64,000 nt of DNA from Deltaproteobacteria bacterium. Its GTDB lineage: Bacteria; Myxococcota_A; UBA9160; UBA4427. The stretch covers positions 27,594 through 91,593 of the forward strand of contig JAFDEK010000005.1 in NCBI GenBank assembly GCA_019310385.1, given 5' to 3'. Of this stretch, positions 5,469 to 13,529 are shown piece by piece. Both the position numbers and the translations under genes were made by a program. The notes under the pieces are model-generated. The model was not told the origin of the DNA. It was given only the letters and a program-made list of their open reading frames with translations, and ran no database searches. Every line of letters begins with the position of its first letter. Positions within the stretch are counted from its first letter, which is position 1.

Positions 5469-7454
5469 ATGCGGGAGCCATGGGTGGCTGAGCTCGGACA
5501 GTATTCCCTGGTCTTCGCCCTTGTGGTCGCCGCCCTGGGCATGGCGGCGGGCTTATTCGGCGGCGTGACCCGGCGCGACGACTGGGCGCAGGTCGCCGAG
5601 CGCTCGGTCTGGGCCGTCTTCTTCTTCACCTCCGTGTCGATGCTGGCCCTCTTCCACGCACTCTGGGCCAACGACTTCAGCCTCGCCTACGTGGCCCAGC
5701 ACTCGGCCCGCAGCATGTCGAACGCCTATCGGCTCTCGGCGCTCTGGGGCGGTCAGGCCGGCTCGCTGCTGCTCTGGGGCTGGATGGTCTGCGCCTACGG
5801 CGCCGCCGCCTTGTGGACCAGCCGCAGAACGAACCGCAACCTGATCCCCTGGGTCGCCGTGACGATCCTCGGCAACGCGGCCTTCTTCCTGGTGCTGGTC
5901 AACTTCGTGACGCCGCCCTTCGAGCAGCTCCCCGCCGGCGAGATCCGCTCCGACGGGAATGGCCTCAACCCCCTGCTCCAGCACCCCATGATGACCATCC
6001 ATCCGGTGATGCTCTACATGGGCTTCACCGGCTTCGTCGTGCCCTTCGCCTTCGCGCTCGCGGCTCTGATTACCGGCGAGCTGGGGACCTCCTGGTTCCG
6101 CGTCACCCGGCGCTGGTCGCTGTTGGCCTGGACGGTGCTCGCCTGCGGCCTGATGCTCGGGGCGCGCTGGGCCTACGAGGTGCTGGGCTGGGGCGGCTAC
6201 TGGGCCTGGGATCCCGTGGAGAACGCGGCCTTCATGCCCTGGCTGGCCGCCACCGCCTATCTGCACTCGGTCATGATCCAGGAAAAGCGCGACATGCTGA
6301 AGACCTGGAACCTGGTGCTCATCGGCCTGACCTACATCCTCTGCCTCTTCGGCACCTTCCTCACCCGCAGCGGCATCGTGCAGTCGGTCCACGCCTTCAC
6401 GAACAGCGGCCTCTTCACCTACATCTTCTTCGGCTACGTGACCCTGGTGGCCGTGGTCTTCTTCGCCGCCCTCCTTTACCGACGCTCGGAGCTGCGCACC
6501 GACAATCGCCTCGAGTCCATGGTGTCGCGCGAAGCGGGCTTCCTGCTCAACAACTGGGTCTTCATGGCGATCCTCGTGGTGGTCTTCTGGGGCACCCTGC
6601 TGCCGGTCTTCTCCGAAGCCCTGAGCGGCAACCGGGTCACTGTCGGCCCCAAGTTCTTCAACTCCATGGCGGGGCCCCTGGCGCTCTTCCTGCTATTCCT
6701 CACCGGCGTGGGGCCGCTCATCGCCTGGCGACGGGCCACGGTGGCGGGCATTCGCCGGCAGTTCGTCGTGCCGGCGGCCGTGGGAGTCGTGGCCGGGCTC
6801 GTGCTGGGCGCCATCTTCTGGGGACGCATCGGTGTGTGGAGCCTTTCCTGCTGGGCGCTCTCGGCCTTCGTCGTCGCCACCATCGTCCAGGAATACTGGC
6901 GGGCCGTCGGCGCCCGCATGCGCGTACACGGTGAATCGACCGTGGCGGCCTTCGCGACCCTGCTGCGCAAGAACCAGCGGCGCTACGGGGGCTACATCGT
7001 CCATCTCGGCATCGTCTTCATCCTGGTCGGCATCTCGGGCGCAGCCTTCAACCAGGAGCGCCTCGACAACATCCACCCCGGCGAGTCCATGCGAATCCAC
7101 GACTGGGAGCTCAAGTACCTGAGCGCGGACGCCATCCCGGCCCAGCACTACGGGGGCGCCCGGGCGCGGGTGGCCCTCTATCGATCGGACGAGCCCAAGG
7201 CCCTCATGACCCCCGAGAAGCGGATGTACTGGCTCGAGCAGCAGCCGAACTCGATCCCGGCCATCTACTCGACCTGGCAGGAGGATGTCTACGTGGTCCT
7301 CTCGGCCGTGGAGCCCGACGGCTCGGCCACCCTCAAGGTCTACCGCAATCCCCTGGTGAACTGGATCTGGTTCGGCTGCGCGGTGTTCCTGCTCGGAAGC
7401 CTCTCGATCATGTGGCCCCACCCGGAACGCAAGGCGGAGCCGCCGCAAACATGA
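5469..7454 (+). CDS. ccmF: Cytochrome c haem lyase subunit CcmF
   Basis: 661 residues, full length, with about fifteen hydrophobic segments and the tryptophan-rich WWD signature GGYWAWDPVENAAFMPWL near residue 240, which holds haem at the periplasmic face. CcmF is the core of the haem ligation complex. A GTG at 5484, preceded by GGGAG, is an alternative start. The stop overlaps the next gene as ATGA. The usual partners CcmH and CcmI are absent from the operon, so the lyase may work without them or with the unknown protein encoded next. Confidence 0.95.
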   Translation: MREPWVAELGQYSLVFALVVAALGMAAGLFGGVTRRDDWAQVAERSVWAVFFFTSVSMLALFHALWANDFSLAYVAQHSARSMSNAYRLSALWGGQAGSLLLWGWMVCAYGAAALWTSRRTNRNLIPWVAVTILGNAAFFLVLVNFVTPPFEQLPAGEIRSDGNGLNPLLQHPMMTIHPVMLYMGFTGFVVPFAFALAALITGELGTSWFRVTRRWSLLAWTVLACGLMLGARWAYEVLGWGGYWAWDPVENAAFMPWLAATAYLHSVMIQEKRDMLKTWNLVLIGLTYILCLFGTFLTRSGIVQSVHAFTNSGLFTYIFFGYVTLVAVVFFAALLYRRSELRTDNRLESMVSREAGFLLNNWVFMAILVVVFWGTLLPVFSEALSGNRVTVGPKFFNSMAGPLALFLLFLTGVGPLIAWRRATVAGIRRQFVVPAAVGVVAGLVLGAIFWGRIGVWSLSCWALSAFVVATIVQEYWRAVGARMRVHGESTVAAFATLLRKNQRRYGGYIVHLGIVFILVGISGAAFNQERLDNIHPGESMRIHDWELKYLSADAIPAQHYGGARARVALYRSDEPKALMTPEKRMYWLEQQPNSIPAIYSTWQEDVYVVLSAVEPDGSATLKVYRNPLVNWIWFGCAVFLLGSLSIMWPHPERKAEPPQT

Positions 7455-9409
7455 GGCCCACACCGCTCGCTCGGGCGCGCGCGCTCGCCGCGCTCTTCCC
7501 ATGCGTCGTCTTTCCATGCGTGGTCTTCCCATGCGTCGTCGCCCTGTGCTGCCTGGCCTTCCTACTGACCGCGCCCGCAGGCGCCCAGCCGGTACACCCA
7601 GGGGCGCCGGGCTCCGTGCCGGATCTGCCGGCGGGTGCGGGCCGGATCCACGGCCGGGTCGTGCATCCCGAAGGCCCGTCCCGGGTCGCGGGGATCCAGA
7701 TCGCGCTCTACGCCCTCTCCCAGACGGGGCCCGGCCTGCGCGGCGCAACGGCGGACGCCGAGGGCGCCTTTCGCTTCGACGGGATCTCGAGCGATCCCCA
7801 GGTGGTCTACCTGCTGGGCGCCAGCTATCGCGACGTGCCCTTCGGCCAGCGGCTGGTCTTCGGCGAAGGAGAGAGCGAGCTCGAGGTGCTCGTCGAGGTC
7901 TCCGACCCGACCAGCGACCCGGCGGGCGTCTCGGTCCGCGAGTCCACCCTGCGCCTGGACTGGCTCGGCGCGAGCCTCGCCGTCGAGGAGACCCATGACC
8001 TGGTGATCGCCGGCTCGGCGGTGGTCTTCGTCCCCGACGAAGAGCGGGTGGGAGACGATGCACTCTTCCGCGTGGGTCTGCCCGCCGGAGCCAGCGAGGT
8101 CGACTTCAATACCGGTTCCTTCGGCGAGGGCTTCGAGCAGCGGGGCGACGACGTTCTCTATTGGGGCCCGCTCTACAAGGGGGACCAGCAGATCCGCTTT
8201 CGCTACGTCGTGCCACTCGCTGAAGGCCGCAGCGTTCTGAACCCGCGCCTGGCTCGGGGCACACAGCGAGTCACCGTGTTCGTCCCCAGCGAGGCGCCCG
8301 CGGTAGAGGGCAAGGGGATGAGCGCCGGCGAAGAGGTGGAGCTCGACGGCCGGCGCTACAGCAGCCTGCAGCGCGACCTCGCAGCGCGGCCTCTCGCCGG
8401 GGACGGCCGCCTCGAGCTGGTGGTCGCGCTGCCGGAGTCGCGCAACGATCCCTCGGCCCTGGGGATCACCCGGGCCGACATGTGGCTCGAGCTCGACGAT
8501 GCCTCCCTCGAGGTCTCCGCCGACCTGCAGCTCGAGGTCGAGGGCCCCCATCGCCTGGCCGGCACCCCCGAGGCCCCGCTGCTCCACCTCGAGCTGCCGC
8601 CCGGCGCCGAGTTCAGCGGGCTCTCGCCCGAAGCCCAACGCCTCGGTGCAGCCATCGGGAAGCAGGGGGGGCTCGACCTGCTGGGCCCCATCGCGCCGGG
8701 CGAGGCGCATATCGCCTTCGGCTATCGGCTTCCCGTCGAGCACGCGGCCGCGGTCACGGAGCTCGACCTCTCTTTCTCCGCGCCGGTGGATCAGCTCAAC
8801 GTGCTGATTGCCGACACGGGCATCGTCGTCGAAAACGACCGCCTCCACCGCCGCCGGCCCTTCCGCCAGGGAACGCGGATCTACCTGCACCGCGAAGCCT
8901 TCCAGGTCGAGCCCGGGGAGGTGATCGAGCTCAGCATGGTGCCCATTGCGCGCGGCGAGGGCTCCCGGCGTGTCTCCATAGTGGCGACCCTCGCTCTCGC
9001 GACCGGCTGCCTCTGGTTCATCTTCGCTCCCCTGGGAGTCGGACGGGCCCGTCGGGAGGGCGAGAGCGAGAGCGTCCCCTCCACCCTGAGCGAGCGCGAG
9101 GTGGTCTACGACCACATCCGCGATCTCGACGACGACCACGAAACCGGGAAGATCGACAACGACGCGTACGAGCGCATGCGGGGCGAGCTGCGTGCCCGGG
9201 CGATAGAGCTCCTGCGCGAGGAGCGCGAAGCGAGAGAGAGCGCCGGCGTCGAGCCCGCCGAGGGAGATCGAAGCGCGGAAGCCGCCGCCGACCGCTTCTG
9301 CCCCGCCTGCGGCGCCGCGCTGACCGAGGGCTGGCGCTTCTGCGCCGAGTGCGGCGGCGAGCTGCCCCAACCCACTGGCCAGTCGCCGGCCACGCAGTCC
9401 GCGGGGTGA
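7451..9409 (+). CDS. Membrane-anchored protein of the ccm operon with C-terminal zinc ribbon
   Basis: 652 residues. In order: a signal sequence that contains three copies of FPCVV (about 16-30), a carboxypeptidase-regulatory-like beta domain (about 55-150), a long beta-rich periplasmic region, one transmembrane helix (about 507-528), a charged helical hairpin with a DHETGKIDNDAYERM pattern, and a cytoplasmic zinc ribbon with Cys at about 617, 620, 631 and 634. The hairpin resembles the cytoplasmic helices seen in CcmH/CcmI-type proteins. Translation is coupled on both sides (ATGA with ccmF, GTGA with ccmA), so it is very probably part of the maturation machinery. It has no CxxC thiol motif in the periplasmic part. 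I do not recognise the family; the function is unknown. Confidence 0.75.
   Translation: MRPTPLARARALAALFPCVVFPCVVFPCVVALCCLAFLLTAPAGAQPVHPGAPGSVPDLPAGAGRIHGRVVHPEGPSRVAGIQIALYALSQTGPGLRGATADAEGAFRFDGISSDPQVVYLLGASYRDVPFGQRLVFGEGESELEVLVEVSDPTSDPAGVSVRESTLRLDWLGASLAVEETHDLVIAGSAVVFVPDEERVGDDALFRVGLPAGASEVDFNTGSFGEGFEQRGDDVLYWGPLYKGDQQIRFRYVVPLAEGRSVLNPRLARGTQRVTVFVPSEAPAVEGKGMSAGEEVELDGRRYSSLQRDLAARPLAGDGRLELVVALPESRNDPSALGITRADMWLELDDASLEVSADLQLEVEGPHRLAGTPEAPLLHLELPPGAEFSGLSPEAQRLGAAIGKQGGLDLLGPIAPGEAHIAFGYRLPVEHAAAVTELDLSFSAPVDQLNVLIADTGIVVENDRLHRRRPFRQGTRIYLHREAFQVEPGEVIELSMVPIARGEGSRRVSIVATLALATGCLWFIFAPLGVGRARREGESESVPSTLSEREVVYDHIRDLDDDHETGKIDNDAYERMRGELRARAIELLREEREARESAGVEPAEGDRSAEAAADRFCPACGAALTEGWRFCAECGGELPQPTGQSPATQSAG
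7496..7540 (+). repeat. Three 15-bp tandem repeats encoding FPCVV
   Basis: Units at 7496-7510, 7511-7525 and 7526-7540 differ at two positions only and encode FPCVV each time, extending the hydrophobic core of the signal sequence of the ccm-operon protein. Length changes would stay in frame. Confidence 0.85.
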
Positions 9410-10818: not shown

Positions 10819-11586
10819 GTGAAACCGCACATGACCTCTGCCGCCTCGAACGATTCCGCCACGGCCTCCGCCTGCCTCTCCCGGCTGGAGCGGAAGGTGT
10901 CCCGGCTGCGCGGTCCCCTGGGCTGGACGCTCGCCCTGTTGAGTCTGATCTACGCGTGGACAGTGATCAGCGCTCCCATCGACAGCGTGCAGGGCGTGAT
11001 CCAGAAGATCCTCTACGTCCACCCGCCCCTCGCCTACGGGGCCTACCTGGGCTTCGTCGTCACCGCCCTCAGCGGAGTGGTCTATCTATGGCGCGGCCGG
11101 GAGGACTTCGACCGCCTGGCGGTCGCCGGAGCCGAGGTGGGCGTCATCTTCTGCACCCTCATGCTCGTCACCGGCCCCATCTGGGCCCGGGGAACCTGGG
11201 GCAAGTGGTGGTCCTGGGATCCCCGCCTCACGGTGACCCTGCTGCTCTGGTTCATCTACCTCGCCTACATGCTGCTGCGCAGCTTCAGCGACGGCGGGCC
11301 GCGCACGGCCCGCTTCGCCTCGGTCTACGGGATCGTGGGCATTGTCCTGATTCCGCTCAATTACTACGTCATTGAAATCTTCGACAATCGCTCGATGCAC
11401 CCCGACAACCTGGAGCGCGGGAGTCTGGGCGCGGGGATGGGCCTGCCCTTCCTCATGGGCAACCTCACCTTCTTTGTGGCCTTCGTCTATCTGCTGTTGC
11501 TGCGCTGGGAGGTCGAGGCCCTACGCACCCAGGCCGCTCGGGAGCAGGCCGAGGAGCGGGCATTCGAGGGGGAGGGCCTCGCGTGA
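10819..11586 (+). CDS. ccmC: Haem-handling protein CcmC
   Basis: 255 residues with six membrane segments and the tryptophan-rich signature GTWGKWWSWDPRLTVTLLLW, which presents haem to CcmE. Two starts are possible: GTG at 10819, and ATG at 10831 with GGTGA eight bases upstream. The longer form is given. The first 25 residues are polar and poorly conserved in kind. The GTGA overlap with the tiny ccmD confirms the operon order. Confidence 0.93.
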   Translation: MKPHMTSAASNDSATASACLSRLERKVSRLRGPLGWTLALLSLIYAWTVISAPIDSVQGVIQKILYVHPPLAYGAYLGFVVTALSGVVYLWRGREDFDRLAVAGAEVGVIFCTLMLVTGPIWARGTWGKWWSWDPRLTVTLLLWFIYLAYMLLRSFSDGGPRTARFASVYGIVGIVLIPLNYYVIEIFDNRSMHPDNLERGSLGAGMGLPFLMGNLTFFVAFVYLLLLRWEVEALRTQAAREQAEERAFEGEGLA

Positions 11587-11699
11587 GCTACCTGATTGCG
11601 GCCTATGCGGTCACCCTGGTGAGCCTGGCCCTGTACGGTGTTCAGCTGGGGCTGGAGCAACGCAGCCTATCCCGGAAACGAAAATCAAATAGCGGTTGA
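11583..11699 (+). CDS. ccmD: CcmD, small membrane subunit of the CcmABCD complex
   Basis: A 38-residue frame starting with GTG inside the ccmC stop (GTGA). It has one hydrophobic segment (SYLIAAYAVTLVSLALYGVQ, about residues 2-21) followed by a basic tail RKRKS. That is the size, topology and position of CcmD, which stabilises CcmC and helps free holo-CcmE. Sequence conservation in this family is low, so the call rests on position, coupling and topology. Its last codons overlap the -35 box of a downstream promoter. Confidence 0.8.
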   Translation: MSYLIAAYAVTLVSLALYGVQLGLEQRSLSRKRKSNSG

Positions 11700-11725
11700 C
11701 AACGGACCTGCGCGCGCAGTATAAG
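11696..11725 (+). promoter_or_regulatory. Strong sigma-70-type promoter after ccmD
   Basis: A perfect TTGACA (11696-11701) and TATAAG (11720-11725) separated by 18 bp. It points into a stretch of more than 400 bp without a convincing gene, so it may drive a non-coding RNA or a very long leader. Confidence 0.6.
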
Positions 11726-11910
11726 GCAGAGCAAGACCTTAGAAGTCGGCAGTTGTTCGTCTATCATCCACTGAGCGGAGCATCGACCTCACATCCCTCC
11801 AGGGGCCACCAGGGGCGCTGGGAGGTCGTCTGACGGCGCTCCGAGAGCGGCGCTTCTCGCAGATCCAGCAGGTCCCTCGCGGCTCCGATCGGCTCTTGGG
11901 CGTCCAGCGG

Positions 11911-11970
11911 CGCGGATAGGCGCAGACAGGCGCAGGAATGCGCAGAATGGCGCAGAAAGTCGCGGAAGAA
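11911..11970 (+). repeat. Six tandem 10-bp units (CGCAGA-type)
   Basis: Consecutive decamers cgcggatagg, cgcagacagg, cgcaggaatg, cgcagaatgg, cgcagaaagt and cgcggaagaa share the core CGCRGA. The 10-bp period matches one DNA helical turn and cannot keep a reading frame, so it is not a protein repeat. Confidence 0.8.
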
Positions 11971-11975
11971 CGTCA

Positions 11976-12007
11976 GCTGTGACGAATTGGGACATCGCGC
12001 TGTGACG
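11976..12007 (+). promoter_or_regulatory. Two direct copies of GCTGTGACG, possible enhancer sites
   Basis: GCTGTGACG occurs at 11976-11984 and 11999-12007, each followed by an AT-containing stretch. They lie roughly 160-190 bp upstream of the sigma-54-type promoter, the usual distance for activator binding sites. The assignment is inference. Confidence 0.3.
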
Positions 12008-12168
12008 GATGTTGCACCTTCGGAACGCGGGCGGAAGTCGGCTACACAATAGTACCCGGACGGAAGACAGCTTGTCCTTCATGAAACACGCGAATTTGCG
12101 GCAACAAAACGGCAGGTCGCTGCGCAAGCACGCGCCGGATCGCGCATCCCGACGCCCCCCCGGTCGAA

Positions 12169-12184
12169 TGGCATGCGGCTTGCT
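12169..12184 (+). promoter_or_regulatory. Sigma-54 (-24/-12) promoter
   Basis: TGGCATGCGGCTTGCT matches the sigma-54 consensus TGGCACG-N4-TTGCW with one mismatch and exact spacing between the GG and GC elements. Transcription would start near 12195. The leader contains a 7-bp hairpin (TCCCCAC 12192-12198 with GTGGGGA 12211-12217). Confidence 0.6.
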
Positions 12185-12321
12185 TAGTTCATCCCCACAC
12201 CCCCAGAAAGGTGGGGACTGACACAGAAAGCGGTGAACGCCGTGGGCGCATGGACGCCGAGGCGGCATCGGACAACCAAGAACTCTCGGGGCCAGAAGAG
12301 GGTCGACACAGGATGGCCAGC

Positions 12322-12810
12322 ATGAAGCGCGGCGTAGGCTATTGCGAGAACACCGACTGCGAGGACTACGCCAAGGGCGTCTTCCTCCTCAATCACGGCG
12401 ACACCTTCTACTGCCCCCGCTGCCGGCAACTCGGCAAAGTCGAGAAGGAGCGGGGCTTCTACACGGGCAACTCCGACATCTTCAAGGAGGTTCGCGTCGA
12501 GTACAACTTCGACCCGATCAACGGCGTCTACCGCGAGATCGCCATCGTGCGCGACGAGAGCCTGTGGGGCCGCAACAACGTCTATACCCTCCAGTCGCCC
12601 CTGATCAAGACGGAGAAGCGCGCGCTGAAGGTCGCCGAGGCGATCCTCGCCAACCTGAACCGCTACCGCGGACTGCTCAACGGCGACGACATCCCGCGCA
12701 CCACCGAGATCATTCTCTCTTTCGACGACTCCTTCGAGGAGTTCTCGCGCAAGCTGAAGCAGCTGAGCAAGGAATGGGAGGCCAGTGGCCTCCGCGAGCA
12801 ACGCAGGTAA
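12322..12810 (+). CDS. Uncharacterised zinc-ribbon protein under a sigma-54-type promoter
   Basis: 162 residues. The N-terminus carries a zinc-binding Cys set, C8-x4-C13 and C31-x2-C34 (YCENTDCEDY and FYCPRCRQ). A conserved-looking middle follows (YNFDPINGVYREIAIVRDES), then an acidic/basic helical tail that may form a coiled coil. I do not recognise the family and no catalytic motif is evident. ATG at 12322 has AGGA eight bases upstream; ATG at 12313 and 12250 are poorer alternatives. The gene stands alone between a sigma-54-type promoter and a strong terminator hairpin, so it is a regulated single-gene unit. A nucleic-acid or ribosome-associated role is possible but unsupported. Confidence 0.7.
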   Translation: MKRGVGYCENTDCEDYAKGVFLLNHGDTFYCPRCRQLGKVEKERGFYTGNSDIFKEVRVEYNFDPINGVYREIAIVRDESLWGRNNVYTLQSPLIKTEKRALKVAEAILANLNRYRGLLNGDDIPRTTEIILSFDDSFEEFSRKLKQLSKEWEASGLREQRR

Positions 12811-12887
12811 GAACGTAGGCAGGAACGGCAGGAAAGAGCGGCCGCCAAGAGCGCCGCTCCTCGGCTCACCCCAAGGAGCCCTTCGAG

Positions 12888-13529
12888 CTACGAACCCCCA
12901 CCGGAGTCGGCACCGGTGGGGGTTTCTGCATCGCGGGGTCCCTCCGGCGCGGGGCGGCCGGCGCGGTTCTCGCTGAGCCGCATGCGCAGGTCGATGCCCA
13001 TGCCCGCCCGGATCGCCCGCAGGCCCTGGAACTCCTCGCGCCGAAGGGGCGGCGCCTCGCGCCCCGCCAGCGCGTCAGCCAGGGGCTCGCGGTACCAGGG
13101 GAAGAGAGTGTCGGGCAAGGCATCCGGCGCGAACCAGTCGAGCTCGAGCACCTCAGGGCCGACGCGGACACGCGAGCTCTCGCCGCAGGGCGAGCAGCAG
13201 TAGACCATGGCGGTGTGCGGGCGGAAGCCGCTGCGCACGTAGTCGCCCACGTGGCGCCCCACCCTGACCTCGAGGCCGGTCTCCTCGCGAATCTCCCGGA
13301 TCAGGGCCTCCTCGGGGCTCTCGCCCGGCTCGAGGGTGCCTCCGGGCAGCTCCCAGCCGCGCAGATCGCTGCGCACGCCGAGCAGCACGCGGCCCTCCCC
13401 CGAGAGCAGAACGGCCTGCAGGACCACCAGCGGGCGCTTCTCGCTGGTGCGCGGCGCAATCAGGCCCCACCAGGCGATGTGCAGATAGCTCGCGAAGGCC
13501 TCGAGCAGGCGCGCGGGAAGCCGCAGCAC
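12888..13529 (-). CDS. NUDIX hydrolase
   Basis: 213 residues. The Nudix box is intact: GGTLEPGESPEEALIREIRE followed by ETGLE (about residues 62-86). These enzymes hydrolyse nucleoside diphosphates linked to another group; the substrate is unknown. GTG start 4 bp after the hisG stop on the same strand, so it closes the hisI-hisG unit. The last dozen residues (TPTGADSGGGS) are encoded by the terminator hairpin of the convergent zinc-ribbon gene. Confidence 0.88.
   Translation of the reverse strand: MLRLPARLLEAFASYLHIAWWGLIAPRTSEKRPLVVLQAVLLSGEGRVLLGVRSDLRGWELPGGTLEPGESPEEALIREIREETGLEVRVGRHVGDYVRSGFRPHTAMVYCCSPCGESSRVRVGPEVLELDWFAPDALPDTLFPWYREPLADALAGREAPPLRREEFQGLRAIRAGMGIDLRMRLSENRAGRPAPEGPRDAETPTGADSGGGS
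12893..12925 (+). terminator. Strong hairpin terminator shared by convergent genes
   Basis: AACCCCCACCGG (12893-12904) pairs perfectly with CCGGTGGGGGTT (12913-12924) around an 8-base loop, ending in TTT on the plus strand. It lies 82 bp after the zinc-ribbon gene and inside the 3' end of the NUDIX frame, and could stop transcription from both sides. Confidence 0.65.

Follow-up and report, generated by a model that had tools for sequence, protein, structure and literature searches.

What does a small protein do that one bacterial class keeps almost unchanged, and why should its gene be read from a promoter of the sigma-54 type? These are the questions raised by a locus in the 64,000-nucleotide stretch of a deltaproteobacterial contig that was analysed here (the window, to which all positions refer). 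A sequence-only reading had proposed there a -24/-12 promoter in front of a single gene for a zinc-ribbon protein. The regulation is by now well supported; the function is what we infer.

The gene and its neighbours

The gene (P0001) occupies positions 12313–12810 of the forward strand, from ATG 12313 to the TAA at 12808–12810, and encodes 165 residues. The start is placed at ATG 12313 because the relatives share the motif MxxM[KR]RGVGYC, while the sequence before it is not shared; the 162 residues assigned earlier were three too few. A putative ribosome-binding site, GAGGG, lies at 12298–12302 (forward strand) within the predicted leader.

The next gene downstream, a Nudix gene (PF00293), is convergent. 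The zinc-ribbon gene therefore forms a single-gene unit, as the sequence-only reading had held. Its description as an isolated sigma-54 regulon unit has to be corrected: in most relatives the gene ends a cytochrome c maturation cluster, and phages carry it too. Upstream lies a ccmC-type gene (PF01578), followed by a short ccmD-like frame. Among 69 loci, a ccmB-type ORF is found upstream in 65 and a ccmC-type one in 63. Gene order is kept among the relatives, and the bacterial neighbours are ccm and his genes, not translation genes (the names his and ccmB were assigned by reading of the sequences).

The ccmD-like frame (11583–11699), likewise labelled by reading, overlaps the ccmC stop and encodes 38 residues with one membrane span; the ccm cluster probably runs to ccmD. 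Further upstream, before a ccmA-type gene, the frame at 7412–9409 also ends in a zinc ribbon (PF13248 at cut-off), which is unrelated to the gene studied here.

Distribution and conservation

A single-sequence search found the protein in 83 of 97 relatives, i.e., in 83 of 90 members of one uncultured Myxococcota class and in none of the seven genomes outside it. With a completeness of 90% or more and a contamination of 5% or less required, 41 of 47 genomes have it, the misses being five genomes outside the class and one inside. A profile that included distant paralogues returned the same 83 among 377 Myxococcota genomes and nothing from the 287 outside the class. A scan of 84,980 species genomes, which reaches close relatives only, yielded 72 loci; the record labels include Myxococcota, Deltaproteobacteria, Proteobacteria and, in one case (L112), Spirochaeta. 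Most genomes of the class have a single copy. Five genomes of family f12 (G079, G081, G083, G086 and G087) have extra copies at 30–44% identity (L114–L118), which are shorter and without the C-terminal helix; in G083 another copy has 67%, and in G087 the main one is at 65%.

The conservation is extreme. Compared with the window, the zinc-ribbon protein has a median identity of 93.9% (69 loci). The medians for its neighbours at the same loci are 63.8% for ccmC (62 loci), 63.1% for ccmB (63), 69.9% for hisG (45), 68.8% for hisI (34) and 53.3% for the Nudix protein (44). Even the ribosomal protein uS12 is outdone: in 26 of 27 paired genomes the zinc-ribbon protein is the more identical one, with medians of 95% versus 83%, the two queries being taken from two genomes of the same family. 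A relative's uS12 had to serve as query because none was found in the window's own incomplete genome. The paired genomes belong to other families of the order and have full-length matches to both proteins; G051, G061 and G076, with partial ones, were dropped. At four-fold degenerate sites the median identity is no more than 56% (68 loci); the divergence is thus ancient, and what selection preserves is the protein. On the same ground, and because gene order is kept, recent horizontal spread was rejected as the source of the high identity.

A protein that evolves more slowly than uS12, is confined to one class and belongs to no named family must be in contact with a part of the cell that hardly varies. 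That the protein helps cytochrome c maturation, or zinc or haem handling, and is expressed with the upstream ccm cluster would explain the steady company of ccmB- and ccmC-type genes. However, a promoter and an enhancer of its own separate the gene from the ccm genes, CcmB and CcmC reach only 63–64% identity as compared to 94%, neither signal peptide nor membrane span is evident in the protein, and no ccm genes were seen in the 7–17 kb read around the phage copies described below. We consider such a role very unlikely.

The sigma-54 promoter

The promoter at 12169–12184 (forward strand) reads TGGCATG-CGGC-TTGCT (TGGCATGCGGCTTGCT), and its assignment rests on the sequence and on conservation in relatives. 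The correct spacing claimed for TGGCATG-N4-TTGCT was confirmed: the -24 GG and the -12 GC are ten bases apart (GG-N10-GC), as in sigma-54 promoters with sites for enhancer-binding proteins. PMC12316311 gives the consensus as TGGCAC-N5-7-TTGCT. Transcription is predicted to start around 12195, 12 nt past the -12 C, which would leave an untranslated leader of 12195–12312 on the same strand. The pattern TGGCAYRN4TTGCW has 11 matches in the window's own 4.93-Mb assembly, as compared to 0 for the reversed pattern. The genome has one sigma-54 (RpoN) gene (a single PF04552 match, E 2e-61) and about 18 AAA+ activators among 26 PF00158 matches.

Conservation of the promoter in relatives had been named beforehand as a point on which the proposal would stand or fall. 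The site is kept upstream of the orthologues in 62 of 71 distinct regions; the reversed sequence gives 1 of 71 and the opposite strand 0 of 71. Counted by locus, 89 of 98 have a site scoring at least 10.5 of 12.5 within 500 bp, where mononucleotide shuffles let expect about 1.75 of 98. These 98 are the loci with at least 300 bp upstream; they include same-genome duplicates, hence the 71 distinct regions. L076 with its short flank, loci cut inside the gene and loci without the start motif were left out of the count.

Could the pattern be a chance match or the site of another protein? In nine of the distinct regions no site reaches the threshold (L068, L071, L089, L094, L095, L102, L106, L109 and L110; near-misses are seen in L068, L071, L095 and L102), and in family f12 the -12 GC reads GG or GA. 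Nevertheless, we hold this explanation to be extremely improbable in view of the two controls, the phased enhancer upstream, the presence of RpoN and a textbook information profile, in which neither the -24 GG nor the -13 G varies and the remaining bases of the two elements, except the last, carry 1.2–1.9 bits. As to f12, the -12 element there is TTGG or TTGA, several of the main copies being preceded by such an altered element; YGGCACG-N4-TTG[GA] stands 51–70 bp upstream of each of the five distant paralogues.

A scan for sigma-70 promoters listed none at the locus. A sigma-70-like pair that the rules of the scan exclude, TTGACA-N18-TATAAG, is seen at 11696–11725, directly at the stop of the ccmD-like frame and about 590 bp before the gene; it might drive a small RNA or basal transcription of the gene.

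Enhancer elements

The upstream enhancer of the sequence-only reading stands, if in another form. Two repeats, GCTGTGACG at 11976–11984 and 11999–12007, had been proposed. The latter lies within a conserved element, UAS1; the former was rejected, as its place is not conserved. In its stead, a different element, UAS2, begins at 12033, and the enhancer is a bipartite pair. In the window UAS1 starts 170 bp and UAS2 136 bp upstream of the sigma-54 site, and enhancer elements of sigma-54 systems likewise lie 130–200 bp upstream, on the same side of the helix.

UAS1 (11999–12020, forward strand; GCTGTGACGGATGTTGCACCTT, class consensus GCTGCGANRAAANTTGCGNAGC) was the sole strong quasi-palindrome to emerge from an unbiased EM motif search of 62 regions from -260 to the promoter, with a log-likelihood of 287 versus at best 91 in shuffled regions. 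In 59 of the 62 a match exceeds the 90th percentile of the shuffled maxima, a figure that is flattered because the matrix was trained on the same regions. With a score of 10.6 the window's own copy lies above this percentile of the shuffled regions, 8.0, and is weaker than most of its relatives.

The positions of UAS1 played no part in the training of the matrix. Across genomes the element starts at about -160, -170, -181/-182, -191 and -201/-202 and rarely between; among 43 sites at -210 to -155 the exceptions are two (-206 and -166). These 43 sites follow a period of 10.5 bp (R 0.66), which was matched by none of 20,000 random draws, though such draws overstate independence because the genomes are related. 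Shifts by whole helical turns between lineages are a prediction of DNA looping, and this is how the enhancer would act.

UAS2 (12033–12050, forward strand; GGAAGTCGGCTACACAAT, class consensus GGWAGNCNGCTTCCCAA) is a second palindrome, with an EM log-likelihood of 209 versus 78 after shuffling in 45 regions between UAS1 and promoter. It usually starts at -135 to -138, and its distance from the start of UAS1 is mostly 33–34 or about 45 bp. The window is not among these 45 regions, and its own copy was read by eye. To our knowledge, UAS1 and UAS2 match no site known by name. A second, weak UAS1 match at 11947–11968 (-222) is in phase and finds no support in relatives. Just upstream of the enhancer, GCGCAG occurs in four close copies at 11915–11962, one of them inside this weak match.

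The search for other targets returned little above control. In 17 genomes there were 18 enhancer matches, nine at the zinc-ribbon gene (one each in nine genomes) and nine elsewhere, the latter against four in the reversed control; a compound UAS1-UAS2 pattern had 46 matches in 89 genomes, five at the gene and 41 elsewhere, with a control of 26. No clear second target came out of either search, and the activator may therefore be dedicated to the zinc-ribbon gene. In showing no clear second target, and in elements that are not known to match a named site, the locus differs from the familiar sigma-54 promoters with enhancers. A compound pattern from TTGCG to the promoter matches the gene in many relatives; in the window's own genome it hits another place only, because UAS1 of the window reads TTGCA. 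All in all, control by sigma-54 through a looping enhancer appears close to settled, as far as sequence comparison can take it.

Palindromes similar to GACACAATTTGTGTC or GGAAAANNTTTTCCC stand upstream of further strong sigma-54 sites in the class (G053:C24, G065:C119, G067:C391, G035:C367, G052:C32, G018:C123, G010:C86 and G014:C25, G018:C246, G004:C9). They are probably enhancers of two further activators.

Leader and 3' end

The leader was said to contain a hairpin. It does, yet the fold is nothing special: its z-score is -0.54, and 59 of 200 shuffles fold as well. A search of 11580–12960 against Rfam gave no match up to E 1, thus no known RNA leader element. The "strong terminator" behind the gene deserves the adjective for its 13-bp hairpin (12892–12925; fold z -3.93), which overlaps the 3' end of the convergent Nudix gene, but not for its T-run, which is weak (TTTCT only); the terminator scan did not list this terminator-like hairpin.

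The zinc ribbon

Residues 11–37 (12343–12423, forward strand) form a putative four-cysteine zinc ribbon, Cys11-x4-Cys16 and Cys34-x2-Cys37. In an alignment of host, phage and paralogous proteins none of the four cysteines varies (20 of 20). The zinc site of the sequence-only reading is borne out, and zinc binding can be presumed. The claim that the protein has no known family also survived: neither Pfam nor NCBIfam nor PHROGs offered a family at cut-off or with a clear E-value. The PHROGs matches were weak and were rejected, as was Phage-tail_3 (PF13550), listed for three of 21 members and below cut-off (19.1 versus 23 bits in the one shown).

When a profile built from bacterial, paralogous and phage copies was run against the PDB, 26 distinct sequences were found at E ≤ 1, and all are eS31/S27ae. 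Being one family, they are not independent matches. The best E-value is 0.0013 with the profile and 4.1e-4 with phmmer, and about 30 residues are covered. What is shared with this small-subunit protein of archaea and eukaryotes is a stretch G[VI]FLxNHxDxxYCxxC with the four zinc cysteines; our protein, in contrast, is bacterial, has C-x4-C as its first pair and about 125 further residues without counterpart. The Pfam model of S27 (PF01599) stays below cut-off (16.8 versus 22.3 bits; best E 0.0012 among 21 members), and the protein is therefore said to resemble eS31 and is not filed as a member. AlphaFold reached a pLDDT of 50 for the whole protein and 70 for residues 52–122, which is no usable model; the alignment behind these predictions had no phage sequences and would have been deeper with them. 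Foldseek found no match at E ≤ 0.001 for either, and the models are too poor for a fold comparison with eS31. The protein is not named in the titles and abstract openings of the open-access literature searched.

Copies in phages

A profile search of IMG/VR disclosed relatives at 62–68% identity on six contigs of 184–298 kb; a seventh viral contig, of 33 kb, carries one at 46%, and two further scans added none. L223 and L224 are near-duplicates and look like the same phage. In the parts that were read, two contigs have phage structural or replication genes: terminase, portal, tail sheath and DNA polymerase on G379 and a major head protein on G381. The part read of G377 showed a Dda-like helicase. 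The phage copies cluster in a tree with a support of 0.80; their link to the f12 copies has only 0.35. The host is probably a bacterium of this class. Neither a search of 50,697 INPHARED records with a phage copy as query nor a plasmid search gave a match. In the six phage loci scanned there was no sigma-54 site scoring at least 9.5 within 400 bp.

The company of the phage copies is different from that of the bacterial gene. In L225 the zinc-ribbon gene shares its last 19 nt with a gene for IF-1 (PF01176, E 1.5e-16); in L227 the IF-1 gene is one small frame away (E 6.1e-17). IF-1 occurs on five of the six large contigs; how much this counts depends on how common IF-1 is in phages of this size. 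L225, L226 and L227 are surrounded by tRNA arrays with 28, 19 and 16 tRNA calls, respectively, in 10–16 kb; L228 and L255 have no tRNAs nearby. The same three loci have a tRNA-Met(CAT) 333–491 bp upstream, the acceptor C1 of which stands opposite U72. C1 facing U72 is a trait of initiator tRNAs. The contig of L226 also has an M24 peptidase gene of the methionine-aminopeptidase type.

Translation genes are no novelty in huge phages. According to PMC7162821, they carry IF1, IF3, S1, S4, S21, L7/L12 and tRNAs, and it was proposed that they redirect initiation with IF1, IF3 and small-subunit proteins (PMC7162821). Contigs of roughly 200–300 kb with structural genes, IF-1 and tRNA arrays around the zinc-ribbon gene conform to this picture; the translation proteins given in the passages cited do not include the zinc-ribbon protein, which has no annotated family.

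What the protein may do

Three hints point to the small ribosomal subunit: the constraint above that of uS12, the copies in phage translation modules and the resemblance of the zinc ribbon to eS31. They are of different kinds, and each alone is weak. From them we prefer to see in the protein a lineage-specific factor of the small subunit that works in translation initiation and is deployed by sigma-54, a reading that we consider about equally apt to prove right or wrong. The class-wide core gene would be transcribed from its sigma-54 promoter when an AAA+ activator binds UAS1; UAS2 may bind the same activator or a second protein. The bound activator would loop out the intervening DNA and open the promoter. 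The product might then bind the small subunit near the site where IF-1 and the initiator tRNA act, and tune or guard initiation for as long as the activator's signal is on. Jumbo phages would keep a copy of their own in a translation module, together with initiator-like tRNA-Met, IF-1 and many tRNAs, to steer the ribosomes of the host. Against this reading speak the weakness of the eS31 match, the lack of a fold match, the two phage loci with no tRNAs close by, the near-identity of L223 and L224, the bacterial neighbourhood of ccm and his rather than translation genes, and the habit of tRNA-rich regions of jumbo phages to collect many genes.

The protein could also be a genuine additional part of the small subunit, or a fourth initiation factor, that exists in a single bacterial class and the phages of that class only. 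We regard this as conceivable and somewhat doubtful, and the same holds for the scheme that goes with it: a constraint above that of uS12, a sigma-54 switch, an eS31-like ribbon and phage copies that lie by IF-1 and initiator-like tRNA and capture initiation.

Zinc ribbons are common in transcription proteins, and transcription, too, is taken over by jumbo phages. A transcription factor specific to the lineage, which binds RNA polymerase or DNA and contacts the polymerase with its ribbon, would equally explain the phage carriage and the extreme conservation of a class-wide, mostly single-copy protein. RbpA, which binds RNA polymerase or DNA in Actinobacteria, comes to mind as a small factor that is likewise restricted to one lineage, nearly always present there and strongly conserved. 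The parallel with RbpA is one of analogy, however, and the phage context points to the ribosome: the identified neighbours are mostly translation genes (IF-1, tRNAs, tmRNA, M24 peptidase), and the only family matched in the PDB is a small-subunit ribosomal protein. A transcription factor is thus unlikely in our view.

We judge similarly low the chance of a ribosome-associated stress or hibernation factor that is made under sigma-54 upon starvation and parks or protects the small subunit. It shares the ribosome evidence with the initiation reading, and control by an apparently dedicated enhancer fits a protein made on demand. Phages, however, want active ribosomes, and the direct neighbour in phages, IF-1, is an initiation factor.

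If the nearly invariant partner of the protein is the ribosome, as our preferred initiation reading would have it, bacteria have more translation factors than those listed so far, and in an entire class initiation is under the control of sigma-54. The phage copies present the matter as a small, testable module. On the phage contig of L227 a tmRNA (L251, 785–1147) with the tag ADNNYALAA lies close to the zinc-ribbon gene.
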